Assembly (NCBI RefSeq): GCF_000310145.2
Contig: NZ_AMXA01000001.1
Span: 124,001-188,000 of the forward strand
DNA: 64,000 nucleotides
Direction: 5' to 3'
Source: Thauera sp. 28
Lineage (GTDB): Bacteria; Pseudomonadota; Gammaproteobacteria; Burkholderiales; Rhodocyclaceae
Below, in pieces: positions 9,173 through 52,259 of the stretch. The notes beneath the pieces were generated by a model. That model saw nothing but the letters and a program-made list of their open reading frames with translations. It did no database searches and was not told where the DNA came from. How positions within the stretch are numbered: position 1 is the stretch's first letter; every line of letters starts with the position of its first letter. A program made the position numbers and the translations under genes.

Positions 9173-9988
9173 TCAGTAGCAGTGTTCGGCGGCCGGGAAG
9201 CTGCCGTCCTTGACGGCTGCGGCGTAGCGCGCCACGGCGTCCTCGATGCTGGTCGCGCCGTCCATGAAGTTGCGCACAAAGCGTGCGGTCTTGCCGTGGA
9301 ATACGCCGAGCATGTCGTGCAGCACCAGCACCTGGCCATCGCAGCCTGCCCCCGCGCCGATGCCGATGGTAGCCATACTGCTCAGACTGCGCGTGATCGT
9401 GCTGGCAAGCTCGGCGGGCACCATCTCCATCACCATCAGCGCCGCGCCGGCCTGCTCGAGGGCGAGGGCGTCGGCCTTGAGCCGCGCCGCGCCTTCCTCG
9501 CTGCGACCCTGTACGCGATAGCCGCCAAGCTGATGTACTGCCTGCGGGGTGAGGCCGATGTGGGCGCAGACGGGTACGCCGCGCTCGACCAGGAAGCGGA
9601 TCGTGTCGGCCATGAACTCGCCACCCTCGAGTTTCACCATCTGGGCACCGGCCGCCATCAGGCGTGCGGCGTTGCGCATGGCTTGCTCGCGGTTCTCGTG
9701 ATAGCTGCCGAAGGGCATGTCGGTGACGATGAACGGGCGGGCATTGGCACGCGCCACGCACTCGGTGTGGTAGGCCATCTGCTCGAGTGTGACCGGCAGC
9801 GTGGATTTCTGGCCTTGCAGCACGTTGCCGAGCGAGTCGCCGATGAGGATGCTGTCGACGCCGGCGCGGCCGAGCAGAGCGGCAAAGCTTGCGTCATAAC
9901 AGGTGAGCATGGCGATCTTGCGGCCTTCGGCGCGCATCTTGCCAAGTTCGAACAGACTGACGGGTTTCTGGTCCTGGAGGTAGCTCAT
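9173..9988 (-). CDS. panB: 3-methyl-2-oxobutanoate hydroxymethyltransferase
   Basis: Transfers a hydroxymethyl group from methylene-tetrahydrofolate to 2-oxoisovalerate, giving ketopantoate. The 271-residue product has the TIM-barrel landmarks [22 protein letters not shown] and VKLEGG, the last two near the Mg-binding acids. Its substrate comes from the valine pathway encoded at the left of this window. The ATG at 9988 has AGGAGTGA a few bases upstream. It is followed by panC. Confidence 0.96.
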
Positions 9989-10097
9989 GGGTCACTCCTG
10001 AAGGGAGCCCGGAGTTTTCACCAAAGTGGTGCATTGCACAAGTGTGACGCTGCGCCGGCTGGGTGTCCGGTGGCGAATCCGGGCCCGGGCAAGGGGC

Positions 10098-10736
10098 TCA
10101 GCCCGCGTAGCCGAAGAACTCGCGATAGCCCCGCATCTCGCGCAGGCGTTCGAGCAGGAGCTCGAAATCCTCGTCCTTGTCGACCGGGTTGAGGACGCCA
10201 GCGTCGACGATGAACAGCGGTGCTGCGTCGTACTGGTAGAAGTAGCGCGTGTAGCGGTTGGCGACCTGCTCGAGGTAGAGCTCGGTGATGCGACGCTCGG
10301 CGTCCAGTCCGCGCTTGCGGACGCGCTCCATCAGGGTGTCCGGGCGCGCCTGCAGATAGATCACGAGGTCGGGCCGGGGCGGTTCGACCCGCTGCACGCT
10401 GTCGTGCACGCGCTGGTAGAGCGCGAGTTCGTCCGCCCCCAGGTTCTGCTCTGCAAACAGGCGGTCCTTGTCGAGCAGGAAGTCCGACACCACGCGGCGG
10501 TCGCCGTCGACCGGGCCGAGTGCGGCGAGTTGGTCCAGGCGCTGGAACAGGAAGGACACCTGCGTCGCCAGCGCCCAGCGCTCCGCGTTCTGGTAGAAGC
10601 GCCCGAGGAAGGGGTTGTGTTCGGCCTGCTCGAGCAGGGTCTCGGCCTGAAGGCGTTCGGCCAGACGACGGGCGAGAGAGGTCTTGCCGGCGCCGATAGG
10701 GCCTTCGACGACGATGTAGCGGGCTTTGTCGAGCAT
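10098..10736 (-). CDS. Deoxynucleoside kinase (dNK/dGK family)
   Basis: Phosphorylates a deoxynucleoside, probably deoxyadenosine or deoxyguanosine, for nucleotide salvage. The 212-residue product starts MLDKARYIVVEGPIGAGKTS, with the P-loop GPIGAGKT at residues 13-20. The family's DRR/SDFLLDKDRLFA block and the arginine-rich lid (RVRKRGLDAERR) are visible. A kinase of this family between folK and panB is a recurrent betaproteobacterial arrangement. An open frame reaches back to 10802 but would overlap the DUF486 gene, so the ATG at 10736 is preferred. The substrate cannot be told from sequence alone. Confidence 0.88.
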   Translation of the reverse strand: MLDKARYIVVEGPIGAGKTSLARRLAERLQAETLLEQAEHNPFLGRFYQNAERWALATQVSFLFQRLDQLAALGPVDGDRRVVSDFLLDKDRLFAEQNLGADELALYQRVHDSVQRVEPPRPDLVIYLQARPDTLMERVRKRGLDAERRITELYLEQVANRYTRYFYQYDAAPLFIVDAGVLNPVDKDEDFELLLERLREMRGYREFFGYAG

Positions 10737-10750
10737 GCGGGGCGCCTTCG

Positions 10751-11134
10751 TCAGCTGCGAAAGATGAAATAGACGGCACCGAGCATACACAGCGCCGCCC
10801 ATAGATAGTCAAGCTTGAGCGGCTGTTTCATGTACAGCACGACGAAGGGGATGAACACGAGCAGCGTGATCACCTCCTGCATGATCTTGAGCTGCGCGAG
10901 GCTCAAGGTGGTTGCACCGATCCTGTTTGCCGGCACCTGCAGCAGGTACTCGAACAGTGCGATGCCCCAGCTCACGAGAGCGGCCACGTACCACGCCTTG
11001 CTCTGCATGTTCTTGAGGTGTCCGTACCAGGCGAAGGTCATGAACACGTTGGAGGCGGTGAGCAGCAGGGCGGTCTGCAACCATACCGGGCTAGCGGTTG
11101 CGGCCGATGTAGCGGACTGGAGCCAGACAGGCAT
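10751..11134 (-). CDS. DUF486 (DMT-superfamily-like) membrane protein
   Basis: A 127-residue protein with four hydrophobic helices. The conserved DUF486 landmarks are SNVFMTFAWYGHLK near residue 30, the helix around FEYLLQVPANR and the C-terminal AALCMLGAVYFIFRS. The family resembles one half of a drug/metabolite transporter; its substrate is unknown. The ATG at 11134 is preceded by GAGG. It sits between folK and the deoxynucleoside kinase, 14 bases before the latter, an insertion in an otherwise familiar gene order. Confidence 0.82.
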   Translation of the reverse strand: MPVWLQSATSAATASPVWLQTALLLTASNVFMTFAWYGHLKNMQSKAWYVAALVSWGIALFEYLLQVPANRIGATTLSLAQLKIMQEVITLLVFIPFVVLYMKQPLKLDYLWAALCMLGAVYFIFRS

Positions 11135-40258: not shown

Positions 40259-40352
40259 GGAGACGTGGCCGAGAGGTCGAAGGCACTCCCCTGCTAAGGG
40301 AGCATGCGGGCTAAAACTCGCATCGAGGGTTCGAATCCCTCCGTCTCCGCCA
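40259..40352 (+). tRNA. tRNA-Ser (anticodon GCU)
   Basis: The 94-base gene has a 7-bp acceptor stem (GGAGACG/CGTCTCC), discriminator G and an encoded CCA. The anticodon arm CTCCC-CTGCTAA-GGGAG gives anticodon GCU. There is a long class II variable arm and a T arm GAGGG-TTCGAAT-CCCTC. Its own promoter lies upstream and a terminator downstream. Confidence 0.95.
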
Positions 40353-40749: not shown

Positions 40750-41061
40750 TTACACAGGACTGCCGTGCAAGGACGCCAGGCGTACGACGGCCAGGGCGAT
40801 GCCGAGCAGACAGGCGGTACCCGAGAACATCAGGCGCCAGGCCAGGTGTCGTGGTACGAAGCCGACGCCACGCACGAAGCCCGCGCTCATGGCCCAGAAC
40901 AGTGCCATAGCGGCCCAGTGGTCCGCGCCGCCCTGCGGACCGGAGAGGGCGGCGGGCCAGGCGGTGATGCCGAGCATGATCGCGATGGCTGTCAGCAGCG
41001 GCAGCAGGCTGATCCCGCCGGTCGGCGCGGCGGGCGGGTGGGGGGCGACCTTCGTGTTCAT
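40750..41061 (-). CDS. ybgE: Cyd operon protein YbgE
   Basis: A 103-residue membrane protein that closes cytochrome bd operons. The family segment ALFWAMSAGFVRGVGFVPRHLAWRLMFS is present between two or three hydrophobic helices (LLPLLTAIAIMLGITAW; LLGIALAVVRLASL). The ATG at 41061 follows AAGGAGGCAACG. It lies 19 bases downstream of cydX. Its role in oxidase assembly is suspected, not proven. Confidence 0.85.
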   Translation of the reverse strand: MNTKVAPHPPAAPTGGISLLPLLTAIAIMLGITAWPAALSGPQGGADHWAAMALFWAMSAGFVRGVGFVPRHLAWRLMFSGTACLLGIALAVVRLASLHGSPV

Positions 41062-41080
41062 CGTTGCCTCCTTGCCGCCT

Positions 41081-41251
41081 TCAGTGTGCGCCGCTGCCGT
41101 TCGGGTGAACCGGATCGGCGTCGAGACGGGGCTGTCGCAGCGCGTCGGCGCGTGCCTCTTCGCGCGCCTGTTCATTTTCGCCCCACAGGGCGTTGAGGAT
41201 GGCCAGCAGCACGGCGAAGCCGATGCCCAGGACCCAGGCGAAATACCACAT
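41081..41251 (-). CDS. cydX: Cytochrome bd oxidase small subunit CydX
   Basis: A 56-residue single-helix subunit that stabilises the haem b/d site. It starts MWYFAWVLGIGFAVLLAILN and continues ALWGENEQAREEARAD, matching the CydX/YbgT pattern (WYFAW...G...A.LNA.W). It is longer at the C-terminus than the 37-residue E. coli protein. It is 27 bases downstream of cydB and was found by reading between cydB and ybgE. Confidence 0.92.
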   Translation of the reverse strand: MWYFAWVLGIGFAVLLAILNALWGENEQAREEARADALRQPRLDADPVHPNGSGAH

Positions 41252-41278: not shown

Positions 41279-42421
41279 TCAGTATGCGGAGTGCTCGTTC
41301 TCGCGGATGTAGGCCGCGGTGACTTTGCCTGCCATCACGCTGTAGGCCCAACTGGTGTAGGCAACGATGATCGGCATGAAGATCAGCGTGGCCCAGAACA
41401 TGATGCCCAGCGTGCGCTGGCTTGAGACCGCATCCCACACGGTGAGGCTGGCGCCCGGCACGGTCGAGGAGGGCATCACGAAGGGGAACATGGATACGCC
41501 AGCGGTGCCGATCACGCCCACGATGGCGAACGACGAAGCAACGAAAGCGGCCAGGGTGCGCCCCTTCCAGACCAGCAACAGCGCGGCAATGCCGCCGGCG
41601 TAGCCCAGCGCCGGCACCAGCATCGTCAGCGGCGCCTTGGCGTAATTGGCCAGCCAGGCGCCGGGCTGCAGTTCGACTGTCTTGGCGAGTGGGTTGGGCA
41701 GCGCCGCGGTGTCCACCGCCGAGGTGATGGCGTAGCCGAAGCTGCCGTTGGCGATCCATAGCCCGGCGGCGGTGAAGCCCACCAGCATCAGCACGCCGAA
41801 AACCAGCGCGGCGGTTATCGAACGGCGCTGGATGCCGCCCTCGGTACGGTGCGCAAGATAGATCGCGCCGTGGAAGGTGATCATCGCCGTGCTCACCACG
41901 CCGGCGAGCAGCGCAAAGGGGTTGAGCAGGCCCCAGAAACTGCCGGTGTAGTGGGACACCAGGGTGTCGTCGAAGTGGAAGGGCACGCCTTGCAGCAGGT
42001 TGCCGAAGGCCACGCCGAAGATCAGCGGCGGCACTGCACCGCCGATGAAGAGCCCCCAGTCCCAGGTGCTGCGCCAGGCGGCGTTGTGGATCTTGCTGCG
42101 GTAGTCGAAGCCCACCGGGCGGAAGAAGAGCGCCCACAGCACCGCCAGCATCGCCCAGTAGAAGCCCGAGAAGGCTGTGGCATAGACGATCGGCCAGGCG
42201 GCGAAGATGGCACCGCCGCCGGTGATGAACCACACCTGGTTGCCGTCCCAGTGCGGGCCGACGGTGTTGATGACGACGCGGCGCTCCTCGTCGTTCTGGC
42301 CGACGAAGGGCAGCAGGGTGCCCACGCCCATGTCGTGGCCGTCCATGATGGCGAAGCCGACGAGCAACACGCCCACCAGCAGCCACCAGATGAGTTTCAG
42401 GGTCGGGTAGTCGAGGATCAT
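41279..42421 (-). CDS. cydB: Cytochrome bd ubiquinol oxidase subunit II
   Basis: Membrane subunit of the oxygen-reducing quinol oxidase. The 380-residue product has about nine helices. It starts MILDYPTLKLIWWLLVGVLL and contains GFAIMDGHDMGVGTLLPFV and INTVGPHWDGNQVWFITGGGAIFAAWP, the typical CydB N-terminal signature. It ends in the operon's usual basic tail (YIRENEHSAY). The ATG at 42421 is 16 bases after the cydA stop. With CydA it transfers quinol electrons to oxygen without pumping protons. Confidence 0.96.
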   Translation of the reverse strand: MILDYPTLKLIWWLLVGVLLVGFAIMDGHDMGVGTLLPFVGQNDEERRVVINTVGPHWDGNQVWFITGGGAIFAAWPIVYATAFSGFYWAMLAVLWALFFRPVGFDYRSKIHNAAWRSTWDWGLFIGGAVPPLIFGVAFGNLLQGVPFHFDDTLVSHYTGSFWGLLNPFALLAGVVSTAMITFHGAIYLAHRTEGGIQRRSITAALVFGVLMLVGFTAAGLWIANGSFGYAITSAVDTAALPNPLAKTVELQPGAWLANYAKAPLTMLVPALGYAGGIAALLLVWKGRTLAAFVASSFAIVGVIGTAGVSMFPFVMPSSTVPGASLTVWDAVSSQRTLGIMFWATLIFMPIIVAYTSWAYSVMAGKVTAAYIRENEHSAY

Positions 42422-42437
42422 GATGTGCGCTCCGGGA

Positions 42438-44000
42438 TCAGGCGTGGGCGTGCTGGGTTTCGTTCATGTAGCGGCCAGTACCCAGGCTGCCGGGGCCCTG
42501 GCGGGCGAACTTGATCATCAGAACCATCTCGACGATCAGCAGCAGGGTGTAGAAGCCGACAAAGCCAGCCAGCGAGCCATACAGGCTTTCCACCGTCAGC
42601 GTGGACACCGACAGGTGGGTGGGCAGCACGCCGTAGATCGTCCACGGCTGGCGGCCGTACTCGGCGACGAACCAGCCCATCTCGCAGGCCAGCCACGGCA
42701 TCGGCAGGAACCACAGCGCCCACTTGAGCAGCCACGGCCGCTGTGCGAAGTCGCCCTTGATCGAGTACCACAGCGCCAGGCCGAACAGCGCCAGCATCGC
42801 GAAGCCCAACGCCACCATGATGCGGAAGGTCCAGAACAGCGGCGCCACCTTGGGCAGCGTGTCGCGCGCGGCGCGGTCGATCAGCGCGGGGGTGACGTCG
42901 TCCATCGAGGCGACGTATTTCTTGAGCAGCAGGCCGAAGCCGAGGTCGCTCTTGACCTTGTCGAAGGCTTCACGCAGTGCTGCGTCCTGCGGGTTCTTGC
43001 GCAGCGCCTCGAGCAGCTTCACCGCCTCTACGCCTACGGTTACGCGCTCGCGGTTCAGGGCGTAGATCTGGTTCAGGCCGGGCAGCTCCTTGTCGAGGGA
43101 GCGCGTGCCGATGAGGCCCATCACCCAGGGAATATGGATGGCGAAGTCGTTCTTCATCTCGGCTTCGTTGGGCACGGCGATGACGTTGAAGCTGGCCGGG
43201 GCTGGTTCGGTCTCCCACATCGCCTCCATTGCCGCGAGCTTGGTCTGTTGTGCTTCGCCGAGCGCGTAGCCGGATTCGTCGCCAAGCACGATCACCGAGC
43301 AGATCGAGGCGAAGCCGAAGGCCGCAGCGATGCGGAACGACCGCTTGGCGAACTCCACATCGCGCCCGCGCAGCAGGTACCAGGCCGAGATCGACAGCAC
43401 GAACATGGCGCCGGTCACGTAGCCCGCCGACACCGTATGCACGAACTTGCCCTGTGCCACCGGGTTGAACACCACCGCCCAGAAGTCGGTGAGCTCCATG
43501 CGCATGGTTTCAAAACTGAACTCGGAACCCACCGGGTTCTGCATCCAGCCGTTGGCGATCAGGATCCACAGCGCCGACAGGTTGGTGCCCACCGCCATCA
43601 GGATCGTCACCAGCAGGTGCTGCTGGCGCGACAGGCGGTCCCAGCCGAAGAAGAACAGACCGATGAAGGTCGATTCGAGGAAGAAGGCCATCAGACCCTC
43701 GATCGCCAGCGGCGCACCGAAGATGTCGCCCACGTAGTGCGAGTAGTAGGCCCAGTTGGTGCCGAACTGGAACTCCAGCGTGATGCCGGTGGTGACGCCC
43801 AGTGCGAAGTTGATGCCGAAGAGCTTGCCCCAGAAGCGGGTCATGTCCTTGTAGATCGTCTTGCCGGTCATGACATAGACGCTTTCCATGATGACCAGCA
43901 TCCACACCATGCCGAGCGTGAGCGGCACGAAGAGGAAGTGGTACATCGCCGTGGCTGCGAACTGCAGCCGCGACAGGTCGACGAGTTGCTCACTGACCAT
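42438..44000 (-). CDS. cydA: Cytochrome bd ubiquinol oxidase subunit I
   Basis: Subunit that carries haems b558, b595 and d and the quinol site. The 520-residue product starts [21 protein letters not shown]; the conserved H19-type axial ligand segment and [13 protein letters not shown] near the C-terminus are present. The periplasmic Q-loop (about residues 255-390) is the long E. coli type. AGGAG precedes the ATG. Its start overlaps the end of cydP by 11 bases. High-affinity oxygen use at low oxygen fits an FNR-like box upstream of the operon. Confidence 0.97.
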
Positions 44001-44253: not shown

Positions 44254-44267
44254 TTGAGTTGAATCAA
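44254..44267. promoter_or_regulatory. FNR/ANR-like box upstream of the cyd operon
   Basis: TTGAG-TTGA-ATCAA matches TTGAT-N4-ATCAA with one mismatch. It lies about 70 bases before the cydP start, suiting oxygen-dependent control. Confidence 0.55.
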
Positions 44268-44531: not shown

Positions 44532-46274
44532 TCAGTGGGCGCTGCAGCAGTTTCTGGCGAGGGTATTGAAGGCTTCGGCCTGGGTCATGAAGATGCGGCC
44601 CGACAGCCACACTGTCACCCCGGTCCGGTCCAGGCGGTCCCGCACCGGACCTTTCAGTTCCGAGAAATGCAGCTGCAGGCCCTTGGCGCGCAGTTCGCGA
44701 TCTAGCTGCATCAGGACCTCTAGGCCGGTGAGGTCGATGCCATTGACCCCGCTCATCATCAGCACCACGTGGCGCAGGTTCGGGCGGCGCGCCAGGGCAG
44801 ACGACAGCGTCTCGGAGATCCAGCGTGAGTTGGTGAACACCAGACTCTCATCGACCCGGATCGACAGGACCTCGGGCAGCGTCTCTACCTCGAAGCGATT
44901 GACGTTGCGGAATACGTCGGTGCCGGCCAGGCGCCCGACCTCGGTCCAGTGGGGGCGGACGGTGCGCTGCAGCAGCAGGCCGACGGCACCGACCACACCG
45001 GCGAGCAAGGCCTCCTTCACCCCCACCGTCAGCGTCAGCACCGCCACCATCAGCATCAGGGCGAACTCGGTGCGCGAGTAGCGCCACGCCAGCACGAAGG
45101 GCGCGAAATCCACCAGCGACAGTACGGCCACGACGATGGTCGCGGCAAGTACGGCGCGCGGCAGGTAGTGCAGCACGTCGCCCAGCAGCGCGATCGCCAG
45201 CGCGAGGAAGAGCGCGGTCCACACGCCGGCCATGCGCGTGCGAGCGCCGGCGTCGAAGTTGACGATGCTGCGCGCGAAGCCGCCGGTGACCGGCATGCCG
45301 CCGGACACGCTGGCCGCGGCGTTGGCCGCTGCCAGGCCGAAGAGTTCGCGCCGGGGCGATACCTTCTCGCCGCGGCGTGCGCCGAGGGCCTCGGCGACGG
45401 CGAGGCTCTCGACATACGCCACCAGTCCCAGCAGTACCGCCGGGGCAAGCAGTTCACGCCACACCGGCAAGGGCGCCGTCCACGGCATTGGGAAGGCCAG
45501 GCCCTCGCCAAGGCTGATGCCGCCCGACAGGGCGACTCCCTCATTCAGGTGCGGGAAGCCGGCGACCCAGGCGATCGCAGCCGCGACCACGACGATGGGC
45601 GCGGTACGCGCCAGCAACTGCGCAGTCCGGGGCCTGAAGCCCAGGCCTTGCAGCACGGGGCTGCCGTGCCGGCGCAGGGCCCACATCAGCGCAAGCGCCA
45701 GCACGCCGATGAGTGCGGTGGTCGCATGGGGCAACGGGTGACTGGCGCCGGCGAGCGACTGCCACAGTGCGACTACCGTGCTGCCGCCAGCCTGCACCCC
45801 CAGCAGTGCGGGGAGCTGGCCGATCGCGATCACCAGCGCGGCACCGGTGATGAAGCCGTGCAGCACCGGCGTGCCGAGCAGCGCCGCCAGCGTCTCGAGG
45901 CGGAACAGCGCGGCGATGAGAAATACCGCCGCCATCTCCAGCGCCAGTACCAGTGCCGCCAGGTGCGGCGTGATCTGATGCGCGGCGGCGACGCCGCCGA
46001 CCGCCTGCGCCGTCATCATCGCCAGCACCGCCACCGGCCCCACGGCGAGGCTGCTGCTGGAGCCGAAGGCGGCGTAGGCGACGATGGGCAGCAGGCTCGC
46101 CATCACGCCCACCACCGGCGGCAGGCCGGCAAGCATGGCGTAGGCCAGGCTCTGCGGTACCAGCAGGATGGTGACGATGACTGCCGCGATCAGGTCGTCG
46201 CTGAGTGCACCGAGCCGGTAGTCGTGCCAGCGCGCGAGCAGGGTGCGGGGGGCGGCGGCCGTCGTCGTGGGCAT
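44532..46274 (-). CDS. SulP family anion transporter with STAS domain
   Basis: A 580-residue inner-membrane protein, last gene of a run of eight. Helices begin at DDLIAAVIVTILLVPQSLAYAMLAGLPPVVGVMASL, the SulP signature. The STAS domain starts at about residue 470 (ILSIRVDESLVFTNSRWIS) and ends in a cysteine-containing tail. Relatives transport sulfate, bicarbonate or other anions. Within this cluster sulfate is the natural guess, but the substrate cannot be read from sequence. The gap to the upstream gene is 12 bases. Confidence 0.9.
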   Translation of the reverse strand: MPTTTAAAPRTLLARWHDYRLGALSDDLIAAVIVTILLVPQSLAYAMLAGLPPVVGVMASLLPIVAYAAFGSSSSLAVGPVAVLAMMTAQAVGGVAAAHQITPHLAALVLALEMAAVFLIAALFRLETLAALLGTPVLHGFITGAALVIAIGQLPALLGVQAGGSTVVALWQSLAGASHPLPHATTALIGVLALALMWALRRHGSPVLQGLGFRPRTAQLLARTAPIVVVAAAIAWVAGFPHLNEGVALSGGISLGEGLAFPMPWTAPLPVWRELLAPAVLLGLVAYVESLAVAEALGARRGEKVSPRRELFGLAAANAAASVSGGMPVTGGFARSIVNFDAGARTRMAGVWTALFLALAIALLGDVLHYLPRAVLAATIVVAVLSLVDFAPFVLAWRYSRTEFALMLMVAVLTLTVGVKEALLAGVVGAVGLLLQRTVRPHWTEVGRLAGTDVFRNVNRFEVETLPEVLSIRVDESLVFTNSRWISETLSSALARRPNLRHVVLMMSGVNGIDLTGLEVLMQLDRELRAKGLQLHFSELKGPVRDRLDRTGVTVWLSGRIFMTQAEAFNTLARNCCSAH

Positions 46275-46286
46275 GGGATGGCGTGC

Positions 46287-47147
46287 CTAAAGCAGATCGA
46301 TCGGTATCTTCAGGTAATGCACGCCGTTGTCCTCGGCCGGTGGCAGCTCGCCCGCACGCACATTGACCTGGATCGCCGGCAGGAGCAGCGTCGGCATGGC
46401 CAGCGTACGGTCGCGCGCGGTGCGCATGGCGACGAAGTCGGCCTCGGTCACGCCGTCATGGATGTGAATGTTCTTCGCCCTCTGCTCTGCGACCGTTGTT
46501 TCCCACACCGGGGCGCGGTCGTCGGGCGGATAGTCGTGGCACAGGTGCAGCCGCGTCTCGGGTGGCAGCGAGAGCACCTTGCGGATCGAGCGGAACAGCA
46601 TGGCTGCATCTCCGCCGGGGAAGTCGCAGCGCGCGGTGCCGTAGTCGGGCATGAACAGGGTGTCGCCGACGAAGGCGTCCGGTCCGACGATGTAGGTGAG
46701 GCAGGCCGGCGTATGGCCGGGGGTGTGCATCACCTCGACGTCCAGCTCACCAATGCGGAAGCGCTCGCCGTCCTCGAACAGGTGGTCGAACTCGGCGCCG
46801 TAGGTGTTCATGTCCTTGGCGTTGAAGATGTCCTTGAACACGCCCTGCACCTGGCGGATATGCGCGCCGATGCCGATCTTGCCGCCGAGCTGCTGCTTGA
46901 GGTAAGGCGCGGCAGACAGGTGGTCGGCGTGGGCGTGGGTCTCGAGCAGCCAGTCGACCGTCAGACCGGTCTCGCGTACGTAAGCGATGGCCTTGTCGGC
47001 GGAGGTGCGCGATGTGCGCCCGGATTTGGGATCGTAGTCGAGCACGCTGTCGATGATTGCCGCGCGGCGGCTAGCCGGGTCAGAGGCGATATGCGTTACG
47101 GTGAAGGTGGCCGGATCGAAAAAGGATTGGATGTCAGCACGTTGCAT
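46287..47147 (-). CDS. Persulfide dioxygenase-like MBL-fold hydrolase (Blh/ETHE1 type)
   Basis: A 286-residue metallo-beta-lactamase-fold protein. The motif H71-A-H73-A-D75-H76 (THAHADH), H145 in HTPGHTPACL and D162 in FVGDTLFMPDYG make the family's metal site. The overall run, from FFDPATFTVTHIASDP through AIIDSVLDYDPKSGRTS to CHDYPP and QVNVRAGELPPAEDNG, matches Blh-type persulfide dioxygenases, which oxidise glutathione persulfide to sulfite. There is no attached rhodanese domain. The ATG at 47147 has GGAGG upstream. Confidence 0.88.
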   Translation of the reverse strand: MQRADIQSFFDPATFTVTHIASDPASRRAAIIDSVLDYDPKSGRTSRTSADKAIAYVRETGLTVDWLLETHAHADHLSAAPYLKQQLGGKIGIGAHIRQVQGVFKDIFNAKDMNTYGAEFDHLFEDGERFRIGELDVEVMHTPGHTPACLTYIVGPDAFVGDTLFMPDYGTARCDFPGGDAAMLFRSIRKVLSLPPETRLHLCHDYPPDDRAPVWETTVAEQRAKNIHIHDGVTEADFVAMRTARDRTLAMPTLLLPAIQVNVRAGELPPAEDNGVHYLKIPIDLL

Positions 47148-47213
47148 GGCCAAACCTCCATGTTGAAGTGTTGAGAATGCGCTCATCGCGCAGGATGCGC
47201 TCGTGTCGCACGT

Positions 47214-48212
47214 CTATTCCGGCAAGCAGATCTTGCCATGGTGAGCCGCAGCCAAGGTCTTCCATGCGAGCAGCGCTACGACCCCACTGAGCACCGCGAG
47301 CATCAGCCAGGAAAGCCCCGCGTAGAAAGGCAGTCCGCTGCGCGCACTCATCTCGAAGGTGGCGATCGTCATCGCCGCCAGCGGGAAGGAGTAGGCCCAC
47401 GCCGAGATAAAGAAGGGCAGGCGGAAGAAGCGCACGGCGTTACTGGCCAGCAGCAGGGTCAGGAACAGCGCGGTGAAGTAGAGCACGCGGGCAAAGGCGT
47501 CGACCTGGCCGGTAAGTGCGACATAGGCCAGGAAGCCGACCGAAGGCGGCGCGATCAGGATGAAGAGCGTGGGTGTAAGGCGCGCGGGCAGCGGTTCGTG
47601 GAAGAACAGCCGGTACAGCACGATCGTCATCAGTACCAGCCAGAACACCAACCCGATGCTGAAGAAGAACCAGCTGATGTCCGCCGGCGCGAAGCGCACG
47701 CCGGCGATCGGCACGATGATGTTGCCCACCACGGGGATGAACCAGGCCGGGTTGGCGTGCTTGATGTCGTAGTGGGTGTGGTGGATCCAGCTGCTCATGG
47801 CGAACAGTGTGAACATGAGATGCACTGCGGCGCCGATGCCCCACATCCACGGCGCGACGGTCGGGGCGTCCTGCGCCCAGGCGATCGACAGCAGCAGCAG
47901 GCCGATGGAGATGGCGGGGAAGAAGTTCAGACGCACCGGATGGGCGCGATCGGCCTTCACCGCTTCGGGGTGGCGCAGCAGCTTGGCTCCGTACATCACG
48001 AGGAGGAACAGGTACAGCGCGCTCGCCAGCCAGCGCAGCGCGATGCCGATCTCGATCGGCATGCCGCCGATGTGATGGGCCTTGAGCCAGGCAATGGTGA
48101 GGCCCGCCATGCCCATCACGGTGGAGAACAGGGCGACCGGGAAATGTGCGAGCCGTCCGCCATGCGCGTCGTGCGCAGCGGCGGGCGTGGCGGAGGAGGC
48201 GGGGGCGTTCAT
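47214..48212 (-). CDS. SLAC1/TDT family anion channel or exporter
   Basis: A 332-residue membrane protein with about ten helices. The start, HFPVALFSTVMGMAGLTIAWLKA, and later GNIIVPIAG and WFFFSIGLVFWLVL segments are typical of the TehA/SLAC1 group, to which the sulfite exporter Ssu1 also belongs. Between a persulfide dioxygenase and a DUF2141 gene, an anion such as sulfite is an attractive substrate, but this is inference. The ATG at 48212 follows GGAAGAACG. Confidence 0.85.
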   Translation of the reverse strand: MNAPASSATPAAAHDAHGGRLAHFPVALFSTVMGMAGLTIAWLKAHHIGGMPIEIGIALRWLASALYLFLLVMYGAKLLRHPEAVKADRAHPVRLNFFPAISIGLLLLSIAWAQDAPTVAPWMWGIGAAVHLMFTLFAMSSWIHHTHYDIKHANPAWFIPVVGNIIVPIAGVRFAPADISWFFFSIGLVFWLVLMTIVLYRLFFHEPLPARLTPTLFILIAPPSVGFLAYVALTGQVDAFARVLYFTALFLTLLLASNAVRFFRLPFFISAWAYSFPLAAMTIATFEMSARSGLPFYAGLSWLMLAVLSGVVALLAWKTLAAAHHGKICLPE

Positions 48213-48232
48213 CGTTCTTCCTTGCAGGGCTG

Positions 48233-48676
48233 TCAGTAACGGAGGTCGATGCTGATCCGGGTGGTGCCCGCACCGGCAGCTACTTCGAAGGCACTGTCCG
48301 CGAACGCGGGCGGGCCGGACACGGTGGGATTGTTCGAGAGGCCGTAGCCTTCGGTCGGGAACATGCCGAAGCGGCGATTGAGTTCGCCGTTACCGTCCTC
48401 GTCGTGATAAGCCATGATCGCGTAGCGACCGGGCGGCAGCGCACCGAAGCTCACCGTCACCGTACCGGCGCTGGCCGGCACCTGCTGTATGGCGACGGCC
48501 TGCGCTTCCTTGCGGAAGGTTTTCGGCTCGGAATACAGCCCCACGCGCAGGCTTCCGCGATCATGCTGGATTCCGGTCAGACTGACTTCAAGTGCGGACG
48601 CTTGCGCCAGCACCATGGTGGCGGTTGTGGCAGAGAGAAGGAATACGAGCAGATGAGCGCTCATTGCGTGTGGCAT
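48233..48676 (-). CDS. DUF2141 secreted protein
   Basis: A 147-residue protein with a signal peptide (LLVFLLSATTATMVLAQA). It has the DUF2141 pattern: LEVSLTGIQHDRGSLRVGLYSEP, then FGALPPGRYAIMAYHDEDGNGELNRRFGMFPTEGYGLSNNP. Probably a periplasmic beta-sandwich; function unknown. Either the ATG at 48676 or the one at 48664 may be used. It lies 27 bases after the DsrE stop. Confidence 0.85.
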   Translation of the reverse strand: MPHAMSAHLLVFLLSATTATMVLAQASALEVSLTGIQHDRGSLRVGLYSEPKTFRKEAQAVAIQQVPASAGTVTVSFGALPPGRYAIMAYHDEDGNGELNRRFGMFPTEGYGLSNNPTVSGPPAFADSAFEVAAGAGTTRISIDLRY

Positions 48677-48703
48677 CCGTTGATGATCAAGTGCGATGAA
48701 TCG

Positions 48704-49120
48704 TCAGAAACCAATGACCTTGCGGTTCGGCTCCAGCAGTGCGGCGCCCATGTCGGCCGGCTTGGCCGGCTTGATGCCTTCCTTCAGGTCTTCGGCTTGC
48801 TTGCCGCTGTTGGGCAGGTAGAGCGCGCACACCGAGGCGGTTGCGCCCTTCTTCAGCGCGCCGTCGAGTAGTTGCGCCGGTGTCACGTTGTTGGGTTTGA
48901 GCGCTTCGCCGCCGGCGCCCTTGAGCGCGAGGTCGCCGGCTTGATCGCATAACAGGATGTCGACCTGCGCGCCCTGTTCCTGCATCTGGTTGGCCAGCAC
49001 CATGGCCATGCCCTGGGTCATCGGGCTCTGAGCGTTGAGGACAACGGTGACTGCGGGCTTGTCGGCGAGCACGGCGGTGGAGCCGAGGGCGATGGCGAGG
49101 GCGACGAGGGCTTTCTTCAT
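48704..49120 (-). CDS. Periplasmic DsrE-family protein
   Basis: A 138-residue protein with an N-terminal signal peptide (MKKALVALAIALGSTAVLA), so it probably acts in the periplasm, unlike the cytoplasmic sulfur carriers TusD or DsrE. The fold pattern AVTVVLNAQSPMTQGMAMVLANQMQEQGAQVDILLCDQAG matches DsrE/DsrF-like proteins. Two cysteines, C58 and C98, are suitable for persulfide carriage, one in the LLCDQ loop. The ATG at 49120 has AGGAG upstream. Confidence 0.85.
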   Translation of the reverse strand: MKKALVALAIALGSTAVLADKPAVTVVLNAQSPMTQGMAMVLANQMQEQGAQVDILLCDQAGDLALKGAGGEALKPNNVTPAQLLDGALKKGATASVCALYLPNSGKQAEDLKEGIKPAKPADMGAALLEPNRKVIGF

Positions 49121-49157
49121 GGTAGTGCTCCTATATAAAGGGTGATGCATCGATGAA

Positions 49158-49457
49158 TCAGGTCTGCAATTCCGGATAGGCTTGGCGCAGCTTGTGATCG
49201 GCAATAAATGCGCCCAGGGGCAGGAGCGCGCCGATGAGCAGCAGTAGCGCCAGGCCTGGCCGGAGAATTCCGCGTGCGAGCGCACTCAGCGTCGCAGTCG
49301 CAAGGGACAGGAACAGCGCCCCGTGCAAGGGGCCCAGCAGCTTCACCCCAAGCGGCTGGTCGAGCATGTACTTGACCGGCACGGCGACGAACACCAGGGC
49401 GAGCAGTGCGATGCCGTCCGAAAAGGCGAGCCAGTTGAGGATCTTGCGGTGGGACAT
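49158..49457 (-). CDS. DUF3817 membrane protein
   Basis: A 99-residue protein with three hydrophobic helices. It has SDGIALLALVFVAVPVKYMLDQPLGVKLLGPLHGALFL, the DUF3817 signature, and a cytoplasmic C-terminal tail. Function unknown. The ATG at 49457 follows a GGAG. The gap to the flavoprotein stop is 16 bases, and the gap to dsrE is 37. Confidence 0.85.
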   Translation of the reverse strand: MSHRKILNWLAFSDGIALLALVFVAVPVKYMLDQPLGVKLLGPLHGALFLSLATATLSALARGILRPGLALLLLIGALLPLGAFIADHKLRQAYPELQT

Positions 49458-49473
49458 GCTGGACGACTCCAGG

Positions 49474-50898
49474 TCAGAGGTGTTCGACGGGCGCGAGCCC
49501 GATCGGGTAGGGGTTTGGCAGCGGCAACTGCGCGGCGATGTCCTGTAGCGCTGTCTGCAACATCTCCTCGACCACGGGGTGGTAGAAGGGCAAGGCCAGC
49601 AGGTCGTGCGCGGTCTCGCCGCGCTGTATCGCCCAGGCAAGCAGATGGGCGAGATGTTCGCCGCCCGTCGCGACCATCGCGGCGCCGAGCAGTCGGCCAT
49701 CGGTCGCGTTGGCATAGACGCGCAGCAGGCTGTCGGTGGCGCCGAGGATGCGGGCGCGTCCGTTCTTGTCGCCGCTGGCGGTGCCGACTACGATCCCCTC
49801 GGTGGGCAGGGCGTCGAAGCGCATGCCGACCGCGGCGATGTCTGGGTCGGAGAAGGCGATGCCGAGTGGCACCTTGCGCCAGAAGCGGGTGGGGGTTTTG
49901 CGGGCAGCGTTGTAGCCGGCAATCGCGCCTTCGTCGGCTGCCTCATGCATAAGCGGCCGGTCCGCATTGGCGTCGCCGGCGATGAAGACCGGCAACTCGC
50001 CGACCTGCATGGTCGTGGGGTCGAAGCGTGGGGTGCCGCGTTCGTCGAGTCGGAAGCCGGCAGCTTCCAGACCCAGGCTGTCGACGTTGGGGCGCCGGCC
50101 GAGGGCAGCGAGCAGCAGTTCGACTTCGGCCTTCCGTCCGTCCGCGTGCATGACAATGCCGGATGCGCTGCGCTCGAGTCGGGTCTGCGTGCCCAGCCAG
50201 AGTTCGATCTCCTGCCCAAAACGTTCGCGTGCGCGCTCGCCGAGTGCAGGATCGGCGAGGCCGCCGACATTCGGTGCGAGGTCTGCCCCGACCACGCGGA
50301 TGCCGAGTCGGGACAGCGCAAGCCCCATTTCCAGCCCGATGGCGCCGAGTCCGAGGATGCCGATACTGCGCGGCAGCGCTTCGAGTTCGAACAGTGCGTC
50401 GGTCGTGATCACGCGATCGCGCAGGTCTTCCAGCCAGCCGGGCATGACTGGGCGTGAACCGGTGGCGATGACGACGGCACGGGCGCGTACGCGCTGCGAT
50501 CCTGCAGGCGACGAGACCTCGATGAGCGTGGGTTCGAGAAAGCGCGCCGTGCCTTCGATGAGTTTGTCGCCGGCGGCGGCGCGAGCCTTGCCGGCGCCGT
50601 TGCTGGCGAAGAAGTCGCGTTGTTCGCGCAGCCTCGCCCAGGTCGCGGCAAGGTCGATGGAAAGGGCCTCGACCCCGCGTGCACCGATCCCGGCCAGGGC
50701 TTTGCGTGTCGCCCACTCCGCACCGGCATGCAGTGCGACCTTCGAGGGCATGCAGCCCACCCGGGCGCAGGTAGTGCCGAGCGGGCCGCGGTCGATCATC
50801 AGGACGTCGCGCCCGGCACGACGCACCTCGCGCAGCGCATAAAGTCCGGCGCTGCCCGCGCCGATGATGGCGACATCGGTGTGGATTTCGTTGGTCAT
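49474..50898 (-). CDS. Dihydrolipoamide dehydrogenase-like FAD disulfide reductase
   Basis: A 474-residue class I pyridine-nucleotide disulfide oxidoreductase. The FAD site is GAGSAG (13-18), the redox-active pair is C44 and C49 (TTCARVGCMPSK), the NAD(P)-binding motif is GLGAIGLEMGLAL, and the catalytic-base region near the C-terminus is FYHPVVEEM. It is not near pyruvate or oxoglutarate dehydrogenase genes. Its place next to a peroxiredoxin gene suggests it recycles thiols or persulfides for this operon. The ATG at 50898 is 68 bases after the peroxiredoxin stop. Confidence 0.9.
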   Translation of the reverse strand: MTNEIHTDVAIIGAGSAGLYALREVRRAGRDVLMIDRGPLGTTCARVGCMPSKVALHAGAEWATRKALAGIGARGVEALSIDLAATWARLREQRDFFASNGAGKARAAAGDKLIEGTARFLEPTLIEVSSPAGSQRVRARAVVIATGSRPVMPGWLEDLRDRVITTDALFELEALPRSIGILGLGAIGLEMGLALSRLGIRVVGADLAPNVGGLADPALGERARERFGQEIELWLGTQTRLERSASGIVMHADGRKAEVELLLAALGRRPNVDSLGLEAAGFRLDERGTPRFDPTTMQVGELPVFIAGDANADRPLMHEAADEGAIAGYNAARKTPTRFWRKVPLGIAFSDPDIAAVGMRFDALPTEGIVVGTASGDKNGRARILGATDSLLRVYANATDGRLLGAAMVATGGEHLAHLLAWAIQRGETAHDLLALPFYHPVVEEMLQTALQDIAAQLPLPNPYPIGLAPVEHL

Positions 50899-50966
50899 GC
50901 GATCTCCTGTTCGCGCGTGGCGTGATGCCCTGCGGCGTGCGAGGCGCGCTGCAGGGCGGGGGCGGC

Positions 50967-51611
50967 TTACAGCGACTTGGTGGAGAAGTACCAATCGACC
51001 GTGTTGTAACCTTCGGTGGCGCGCTTGTCGGCCGCCTCGGCGGTCTTGGGCGGGGAGACGATCACTTCCTTGCCCGGGCACCAGTTCTCGGGTGTGGCGA
51101 CACCGTGCGTGTCCGAGGTCTGCAGTGCCTGCAGCAGGCGGACGAACTCGTCGATGCTGCGGCCGTTGCTCATCGGGTAATACACCATGGCGCGCATTAC
51201 GCCATTGGGGTCGATGAAGAAGGTCGCGCGCACGGCCTGGGTGTCGGCAGCACCCGGATGGACCATGCCGTAGGCGCGGGCGACATCCATCTTGATGTCT
51301 TCGATGATCGGGAAGGGGATATCGACGCCGAATTTTTCCTTGATGTTGCGCGTCCAGGCCAGGTGCGAGAACAGGCTGTCGATCGACAGGCCGAGCAGTT
51401 CGCAATTCATCTCAGCGAACTTGGGCGCGGCATTGGCGAAACCGATGAACTCGGTGGTGCATACCGGCGTGAAGTCGGCGGGATGCGAGAACAGGATCAG
51501 CCACTTGCCGCGGTAGTCCTCGAGCGAACGCTCACCATGCGTGGTACGGACGCTGAATGCAGGGGCCGGTTCGTTCAGGCGGGGAAAGCTGAATTGCTGT
51601 GCGTTTTCCAT
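50967..51611 (-). CDS. 1-Cys (Prx6-type) peroxiredoxin
   Basis: A 214-residue peroxidase reducing H2O2, organic peroxides or peroxynitrite. The peroxidatic cysteine is C51 (FTPVCTTEF, following HPAD). The long C-terminal domain (DPNGVMRAMVYYPMSNGRSIDEFVRLLQAL) belongs to the Prx6 subfamily. A further cysteine, C178 in ENWCPG, might resolve or glutathionylate; C70 is also present. AGGAG precedes the ATG. It heads an eight-gene leftward cluster and has a promoter covered by tandem dyads. Confidence 0.92.
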   Translation of the reverse strand: MENAQQFSFPRLNEPAPAFSVRTTHGERSLEDYRGKWLILFSHPADFTPVCTTEFIGFANAAPKFAEMNCELLGLSIDSLFSHLAWTRNIKEKFGVDIPFPIIEDIKMDVARAYGMVHPGAADTQAVRATFFIDPNGVMRAMVYYPMSNGRSIDEFVRLLQALQTSDTHGVATPENWCPGKEVIVSPPKTAEAADKRATEGYNTVDWYFSTKSL

Positions 51612-51654
51612 GATGGTGCTCCTAGGGTGAGGGAGATGTCTTTCGACGAGGCAT

Positions 51655-51688
51655 ACATTAGAGTGTTCTAATATTTAGAGCAATCTTA
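51655..51688 (-). promoter_or_regulatory. Promoter with two tandem dyads before the peroxiredoxin operon
   Basis: Two imperfect copies of TTAGA-N4-TCTAA lie 17 bases apart: 51658-51671 (exact, with GTGT) and 51675-51688 (TCTTA in the right arm, with GCAA). On the minus strand the best promoter pair is TTGCTC (51678-51683) and TAATGT (51655-51660) with a 17-base spacer. The dyads therefore cover both hexamers. The stretch is AT-rich in a GC-rich region. Confidence 0.5.
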
Positions 51689-52259
51689 TTTTTTGAATTA
51701 TTTTGATAGCTAAACATAATGGCTTCCCGTGCTGGCTAGGCCTCGCTCTGTCAAGGCATGCGCAATCGGCGTGCCAACTCTGCGGAAGCAGGATTGCGCT
51801 TGAAATGTCTGCGCCAAAGCTGGAGCCTCGGGACAAGACGCCGGCTTTGGAGTGACTTCTGCTGCCTAAGATGGCGGTGATTGCTGCCATTTCTGGCGCA
51901 TTTTGCCTGCTGAGTCGGATGTGGAGGTGTCGTGGCGGCGTATCACACGTTCCGACGTCTCCGCTGGAGTCCATGAGGACCTGTGTATTGATGCTGCGCA
52001 AGCCAGTCGGCCGGACGATGTGACGGCCCACAGGCGTCGGGAGACGGGAGCGCTCATTGCCGAAGGTCCGCATGCAGCCCCAATTCGCACTTGTAGACGC
52101 GCACTGGAAACGTCTGTCGAACTTGGCGACAATGCTTGGGTGGCCTCGCTGAAAGGCCCGTCCTTGCGCAGCCCGATGGCAACCGGCGATCAGTCGCACG
52201 CCCCTTGGCCAGGTCTTGCGCCCCCTGTTTCGCGGCATGCTCCAGTGGGGTCACAGTCG
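51689..52259. other. 571-base gap between peroxiredoxin and histidine kinase, no gene accepted
   Basis: The kinase frame stays open back to 51903, and a minus-strand frame spans 51675-52238, but neither has a ribosome site, a signal peptide or a recognised family. Base composition is lower in GC than its surroundings. The long minus frame may be a degenerate fragment of something acquired. A promoter for the kinase was not recognised. Confidence 0.4.

Follow-up and report, generated by a model that had tools for sequence, protein, structure and literature searches.

Here we report that an eight-gene block in a 64,000-nucleotide stretch of the Thauera sp. 28 genome (contig NZ_AMXA01000001.1, positions 124,001 to 188,000 of the forward strand; hereafter, the window) is probably a detoxification operon for sulfide and sulfane sulfur, acting under a FisR-type activator with sigma-54 and, probably, under an ArsR-type repressor as well. 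The block occupies window positions 44532-51611 and encodes, from first gene to last, a Prx6-type peroxiredoxin, a flavoprotein reductase, a DUF3817 protein, a DsrE protein, a DUF2141 protein, a SLAC1 channel, a persulfide dioxygenase (PDO) and a SulP transporter. The set of genes, the conservation of their neighbourhoods and the control sites they share support the reactive-sulfur role proposed in an earlier note made from the sequence alone; of the “sulfur/peroxide” handling named there, the sulfur side outweighs the peroxide side, which is weaker. Heterotrophic denitrifiers of this group encounter sulfide in wastewater and sediments, and the block offers candidate parts beyond the sulfide-detoxification operons compared below (sulfite exit through SLAC1, a peroxiredoxin-reductase pair, a periplasmic DsrE, DUF2141 and DUF3817), together with two specific DNA sites by which sulfane sulfur would regulate the cluster. 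The roles of the two DUFs, and of a DsrE family without a sequence model, are thereby made testable.

In the mechanism that we propose, sulfide:quinone oxidoreductase (SQR), encoded elsewhere in the genome, would convert H2S to sulfane sulfur (per- or polysulfide), the cytoplasmic PDO would oxidize glutathione persulfide (GSSH) with O2 to sulfite, and the sulfite would leave through the SLAC1 channel of the TDT family, with SulP moving sulfite or sulfate. The periplasmic DsrE protein would carry or buffer sulfane sulfur on a conserved cysteine, and the peroxiredoxin, recharged by the flavoprotein reductase, would reduce surplus per- and polysulfide (and peroxide), a route that would also work at low O2; cytochrome bd, encoded nearby, would sustain respiration under sulfide. 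Transcription would begin ahead of the peroxiredoxin gene. Sulfane sulfur would induce it by two routes: a FisR-type activator would act at a sigma-54 promoter, and a repressor, probably one of the ArsR/BigR kind, would leave a gene-proximal inverted repeat. The peroxiredoxin PrxI of Synechococcus reduces S8 to H2S (PMC9426444), and cytochrome bd figures as a sulfide-tolerant oxidase in titles of a reference list (PMC9774590).

All eight reading frames lie on the minus strand, and the gaps between them, measured between stop and start codons, come to 68, 16, 37, 27, 20, 66 and 12 bases, so that reading frames and coordinates bear out the earlier count of eight same-strand genes 12-68 bases apart. 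None of four terminator-like matches on the minus strand within the block falls in an intergenic gap, and the genes may share a single transcript. Searched against Rfam for a leader RNA ahead of the cluster, the window yielded only a tRNA at 40259-40349. Pfam and NCBIfam agree with the family names given earlier for seven of the eight proteins, the exception being DsrE, whose name is upheld by its predicted fold. The peroxiredoxin (50967-51611) has AhpC-TSA and 1-cysPrx_C domains and scores above the PRK13189 cut-off, and the reductase (49474-50898) is a dihydrolipoyl-dehydrogenase-like flavoprotein disulfide reductase that matches the Pyr_redox_2 and dihydrolipoyl dehydrogenase models and carries a CARVGC redox motif. 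DUF3817 (49158-49457) is a small membrane protein, and the SulP sulfate/sulfite-type transporter (44532-46274) includes a STAS domain. The DUF2141 protein (48233-48676) is predicted to be beta-rich (pLDDT 82); its model had no match in the PDB at E<=0.001 (best 2yjl_B, 6.2e-03).

The dioxygenase (46287-47147) belongs to the metallo-beta-lactamase family and matches positions 140-423 only of the 423 in the Blh model, at 402 bits against a cut-off of 625, and leaves the fused sulfurtransferase (rhodanese, DUF442) half of that model without a counterpart; of the label “Blh-type persulfide dioxygenase” used in the earlier note, the dioxygenase part stands and the rhodanese half does not. Its closest structures are 9g8t, 4efz (E 1.2e-115) and 4ysk (E 9e-111), the last of which we take to be a PDO of known activity. 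Ten sequences all retain the HxHxDH motif (H71, H73, D75, H76), H145 and D162, which are presumably the iron-binding residues. By homology and metal-ligand motifs the protein classifies as a stand-alone type II PDO, corresponding to the second half of Blh, and would be expected to oxidize glutathione persulfide to sulfite with O2.

The neighbouring SLAC1/TDT protein (47214-48212) contains the SLAC1 domain of Pfam and is homologous to TehA/SLAC1 structures, and its position beside the PDO suggests that it may export sulfite. It also matches the narrower TIGR00816 and TehA models, below both cut-offs (156.7 versus 237.25 and 146.6 versus 342 bits), which lends something to the idea of a tellurite or selenite resistance locus in which SLAC1 would be TehA-like and SulP would move oxyanions; we consider this very improbable given the linkage to PDO, SQR and FisR, and no ter gene is among the families found in the block. 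Among 61 genomes, PDO was found in 21, at 23 places (E<=1e-40), and SLAC1 in 15 (E<=1e-30). Genes lying no more than 5 kb from PDO at these 23 places included SulP (12), ArsR (8), SLAC1 (6), DsrE (6) and Prx6 (5); “FisR” and “SQR” labels around these places carried no identity threshold, and their counts were not used. Twelve of the 23 loci were inspected gene by gene (L191-L202, with L194 and L195 from the same genus), and a TauE gene, recognized by eye and confirmed by Pfam, lies near the PDO in four of them (L196, L198, L201, L202) and a SulP gene in another four (L191, L192, L193, L200); since TauE or SulP stands beside the PDO in these other genomes, SLAC1 would occupy their place here. 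The “FisR” hits in L195 and L201 were set aside as probably other sigma-54 activators. At one further locus (L038, G028:C8, 5070-7306) a near-full SulP match (81%) is followed in tandem by a partial one (83%, residues 1-168), perhaps a partial duplication.

The DsrE protein (48704-49120) matched no Pfam or NCBIfam sequence model at E<=0.001, and at E<=1 Pfam gave a single match, to the unrelated lipoprotein model Lipoprotein_16 (E 0.18). Despite this null search the name is kept, because an AlphaFold2 model built from 18 aligned sequences (pLDDT 89.3) matches DsrE-family structures, the top matches being 3pnx (E 4.8e-07), YchN 1jx7 (TM 0.71/0.82) and DsrEFH 2hy5_B (E 2.7e-05); the protein is thus predicted to have the DsrE/YchN fold. 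Cys98, invariant in the 18 sequences, is a candidate sulfur-carrying cysteine; Cys58 is found in near relatives, and the leader, read by eye, is signal-like. A second DsrE gene, 86% identical, is present in the same genome (contig C4; L036, G000:C4:165400-185300, 9770-10183), where it adjoins genes for a Rieske protein, NnrS and, by eye, a TonB-receptor-like protein, and has the repeat described below 54 bp upstream.

Two candidate control sites precede the peroxiredoxin gene, both on the minus strand. The distal one is a sigma-54 promoter match, TGGCACGCCGATTGC (51762-51776), identified by sequence match 165 bp upstream of the start. Its pattern, TGGCACGN4TTGC, is present at 12 positions of the 4.3-Mb genome, against 2 for the reversed control. 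Closer to the gene lies the inverted repeat TTAG-N6-CTAA (51671-51658, within an element at 51654-51683), a putative operator that overlaps a weak sigma-70-like TTGCTC-N17-TAATGT; positions 51671-51654 read TTAGAACACTCTAATGTA. The extended pattern TWAGN6CTWATRTW gives five hits in the same genome, which are four distinct sites, and none in the control. The sites precede the peroxiredoxin gene, the second DsrE gene and a row on contig C7, and lie between FisR and SQR on contig C19. The C7 site (G000:C7:157281-157298; L230/L232) stands ahead of an operon-like row that, by eye, comprises protein-isoaspartate methyltransferase-like, rhodanese-like and TolC-like genes.

Both patterns were then surveyed upstream of family members in other genomes, a looser sigma-54 pattern within 250 bp and TWAGN6CTWA within 150 bp, with 1112 open reading frames (ORFs) as control; the counts exclude the Thauera sp. 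28 genome itself (the window, L036 and L077) as well as rows whose upstream sequence was a duplicate, and, as related genomes are not independent, significance is a guide only. The sigma-54 pattern preceded 7 of 17 Prx6 genes and 19 of 27 Rieske genes, compared with 3 of the control ORFs; its distance from Prx6 was 164-171 bp at five of the seven places, and 97 and 61 bp at the other two. TWAGN6CTWA preceded 9 of 17 Prx6 genes (shuffled expectation 0.17) and 14 of the control ORFs, and was found ahead of DUF2141 (6/18), Blh (7/44), DsrE (7/87) and SQR (3/18), with none ahead of SulP (0/18) or DUF3817 (0/9); variants with a spacing of 5 or 7 were rare. The Rieske gene, which encodes a TAT signal and carries the sigma-54 match at those 19 places (L030, L079-L082, L084, L087-L089, L091, L092 and others), often lies near FisR, and this makes it a probable FisR target.

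These sites also bear on whether the block might instead be a peroxide-stress operon, led by the peroxiredoxin and its reductase with the sulfur genes behind them by chance. The peroxiredoxin gene is indeed first and carries both site matches, and peroxide regulators are often found upstream of peroxiredoxins. Yet the same repeat stands ahead of some SQR, PDO, DsrE and DUF2141 genes, the sigma-54 match stands ahead of Rieske genes that often adjoin FisR, and Prx6 occurs with DsrE and Blh outside the genus at three loci (L155, L157, L162); we regard a peroxide operon as improbable.

As to what might act at the two sites, the earlier statement that there is no nearby regulator holds for the genes of the block, but site matches lie upstream of it and a FisR-type gene is present elsewhere in the genome. 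That gene lies on contig C19, divergent from SQR; a relative 85% identical to its product has, according to Pfam, AAA+ activator and PAS-type sensor domains. The first 81 residues of the Thauera sp. 28 FisR contain cysteines 25, 42, 53, 64 and 71, and 53, 64 and 71 are presumably also the cysteine numbers in Cupriavidus FisR, a comparison of numbering and not of aligned sequence. FisR is reported to sense sulfane sulfur through three conserved cysteines (PMC9774590). In three related genomes, G005 (L030), G010 (L045) and G008 (L029), a divergent FisR gene lies directly beside the cluster. The FisR of Thauera sp. 28 may bind and activate the peroxiredoxin promoter of the block. The inverted repeat is likely a site for an ArsR-type repressor, because it precedes an ArsR gene in 4 of the 14 loci with an ArsR hit (L132, L157, L194, L202), three of which (L157, L194, L202) have the ArsR gene divergent from PDO. 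The ArsR homologue of Thauera sp. 28 (contig C16) keeps Cys36 and Cys102, and precedes rhodanese, glutaredoxin and secB-like genes (by eye).

Among close relatives the cluster is accessory and modular, because the DsrE gene is patchy and elsewhere only part of the set is present. Of 101 genomes searched for DsrE, 29 of them from the same genus and one of them that of the window (about 4.3 Mb, G000), 19 gave a hit, 15 of these among the 29; the full eight-gene order recurs in G008 (L031), a genome that holds two versions of the cluster. DsrE and PDO occur together in G000, G002, G005, G008, G028 and, with a DsrE remnant, G004. An island of unrelated genes assembled by drift or transfer would account for the patchy presence, the two versions in G008 and the modules split in relatives. 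It is barely credible, since the same families reunite in other orders and in distant genera, and DUF2141, where apart from the upstream genes, often has a repeat of its own (the 6 of 18 places above). At five loci (L027, L028, L029, L030, L045) DsrE is followed by genes for a TonB-dependent receptor, which has a His-rich loop, and for a small Cys/His protein; the insert comes ahead of DUF2141 in L027, L028 and L045, and ahead of SLAC1 in L029 and L030, two loci that yielded no DUF2141. Sigma-54 matches in these receptor-type loci lie before DUF2141 (L027, L045) or SLAC1 (L029, L030); at L027 and L098 DUF2141 has the repeat upstream. A role in metal uptake was set aside, the relatives' receptor having no close copy in the Thauera sp. 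28 genome (best 35%, residues 10-216).

Recurrence extends well beyond these relatives. The DsrE alignment, scanned against the genomes of 84,980 species, found 261 relatives, and the analysis covers the best 80 loci among them; partner counts used set identity thresholds (SQR at >=30% identity) and crude ORF calls, which recovered the DsrE ORF in 74 of the 80, and are approximate. Within these best 80 loci we counted periplasmic rhodanese (30), Blh (23), SLAC1 (19), SQR (19), cydA (17), DUF2141 (15), FisR (13), Prx6 (12) and SulP (9). Conserved co-occurrence in other genomes, which the earlier note had suggested looking for, was found: at least one of Blh, SQR, SLAC1, SulP and FisR accompanied 44 of the 80 DsrE loci, and 34 of the 64 outside the Thauera-Azoarcus group, with none in 36 of the 80. 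At 1-2 PDO genes per ~4 Mb, simple arithmetic puts one in about 1% of random 20-kb stretches, and the partner families co-occur with DsrE beyond chance. In Marinobacter, Blh, DsrE and SLAC1 are consecutive, with SQR divergent, in 5 of 13 loci, and one Limnohabitans locus (L162) unites DsrE, SulP, DUF3817, Blh and Prx6. Multihaem cytochrome c and cytochrome b561 genes lie near DsrE/SLAC1 in 17 and 16 of the 80 loci, respectively (e.g. L102, L103, L104, L159, L160, L163).

Sulfide might alternatively serve as an extra electron donor, oxidized for energy through SQR, PDO and the respiratory chain, with tolerance as a side effect. PMC11782648 describes a Thauera bin with a complete sulfide-oxidation pathway that sulfide enriched in denitrifying cultures, and the surroundings of DsrE genes repeatedly include Rieske, cytochrome b561 and multihaem cytochrome genes. 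The peroxiredoxin and exporters, however, better match detoxification, and the labelled neighbourhoods showed no sign of sox or soe genes, although no search was aimed at these. Sulfite formation by PDO, moreover, conserves no energy, and we hold an energy-yielding pathway to be unlikely. The cytochrome bd genes cydA and cydB (41279-44000, minus strand), downstream of the block and followed by ybgE (40750-41175), have their own FNR-like site, TTGATTCAACTCAA, at 44254-44267 upstream of the cydAB unit. Because of this site, we take cydAB to be probably a separate transcription unit, a partner of the operon rather than a member of it.

Several observations weigh against a sulfide-detoxification operon with these two switches. 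The peroxiredoxin and reductase would be compatible with a peroxide role alone, and the SQR frame of Thauera sp. 28 appears shifted between its leader and flavoprotein part (L077, G000:C19:13000-32900, 10790-10900), perhaps through an assembly error, perhaps as a genuine break. To the patchiness and modular splitting of the cluster are added genomes in which DsrE and PDO lie apart (G001, G009, G014, G018, G022 and, from another genus, G033). The surveyed sigma-54 pattern preceded neither Blh (0/44) nor SQR (0/18). The FisR of Acinetobacter baumannii still controls the FisR-SQR-PDO-TauE operon without the conserved cysteines (PMC7315123), so that cysteines alone are no proof of sensing. The sigma-70-like element was read by eye, with three of six matches per hexamer, and the promoter scan did not report it. 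For the repressor, only those 4 of 14 ArsR loci carry the repeat, none of the four repeat sites in the Thauera sp. 28 genome is ahead of an ArsR gene, and its ArsR homologue (35% identity with the query) lacks the repeat upstream. The repeat pattern itself was derived from the Prx6, second DsrE and SQR sites of this genome, and those three are not independent tests. Across the order it matched in 157 of 250 genomes, mostly at background level and often no more than the reversed control; eight genomes of the same family, Thauera sp. 28 included, held 33 matches against 9 for the reversed control. These counts were dropped as support.

We offer more tentatively, as a possibility about which we remain somewhat doubtful, a broader proposal: TWAG-N6-CTWA would serve as operator for an ArsR-type repressor that senses sulfane sulfur and whose regulon (Prx6, SQR, PDO, DsrE, DUF2141 and more) spans beta- and gammaproteobacteria and forms with FisR a two-tier sulfur response, the periplasmic DsrE family that sequence-family models miss would be a dedicated sulfane-sulfur carrier or buffer, and SLAC1 would be the sulfite exit.

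Much of this has counterparts in known systems. In the literature searched (titles and abstract openings), neither this gene combination nor the shared repeat was found, weak evidence of absence given that most subscription journals lay outside coverage; DUF2141 with sulfide gave no match, and PDO with sulfite and SLAC1 gave only a plant review. Among the closest are the FisR/sigma-54 SQR-PDO operons of Cupriavidus pinatubonensis and of A. baumannii, where a FisR-controlled SQR-PDO-TauE operon is described (PMC7315123), which are alike in having a FisR-type activator, a sigma-54 match, PDO, SQR and a putative sulfite exporter. Here, by contrast, FisR and SQR are encoded at a separate locus, TauE gives way to SLAC1 and SulP, and the peroxiredoxin, flavoreductase, DsrE, DUF2141 and DUF3817 are extra. 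Cupriavidus FisR is reported to have three conserved cysteines, as in the Thauera sp. 28 protein; the A. baumannii FisR is described as lacking them (PMC7315123), whereas the Thauera sp. 28 FisR has Cys53, Cys64 and Cys71. The bigR operon of Xylella and Agrobacterium (BigR, Blh, TauE) shares a homologous dioxygenase, a proposed sulfite exporter and a probable thiol-switch repressor, BigR being reported to use Cys42 and Cys108 (PMC5823870), to be compared with Cys36 and Cys102 in the ArsR protein here; the present dioxygenase has no rhodanese (DUF442) half, and neither a BigR gene nor TauE is among the eight genes.

PrxI of Synechococcus acts on sulfane sulfur (PMC9426444), as proposed for the block peroxiredoxin, which differs in being of Prx6 type and paired with a flavoreductase gene. 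In Methylophaga thiooxydans growing on dimethylsulfide, a pdo-sqrB-sulP cluster brings PDO, SQR and SulP genes together, so that PDO and SulP are common to it and the block; as far as the available text goes, that organism has a methanethiol oxidase, its peroxiredoxin is up-regulated and not placed in the cluster, and DsrE and SLAC1 go unmentioned (PMC6548844). With FisR-SQR-PDO-TauE, bigR and pdo-sqrB-sulP clusters already known, the combination described here is a variant.

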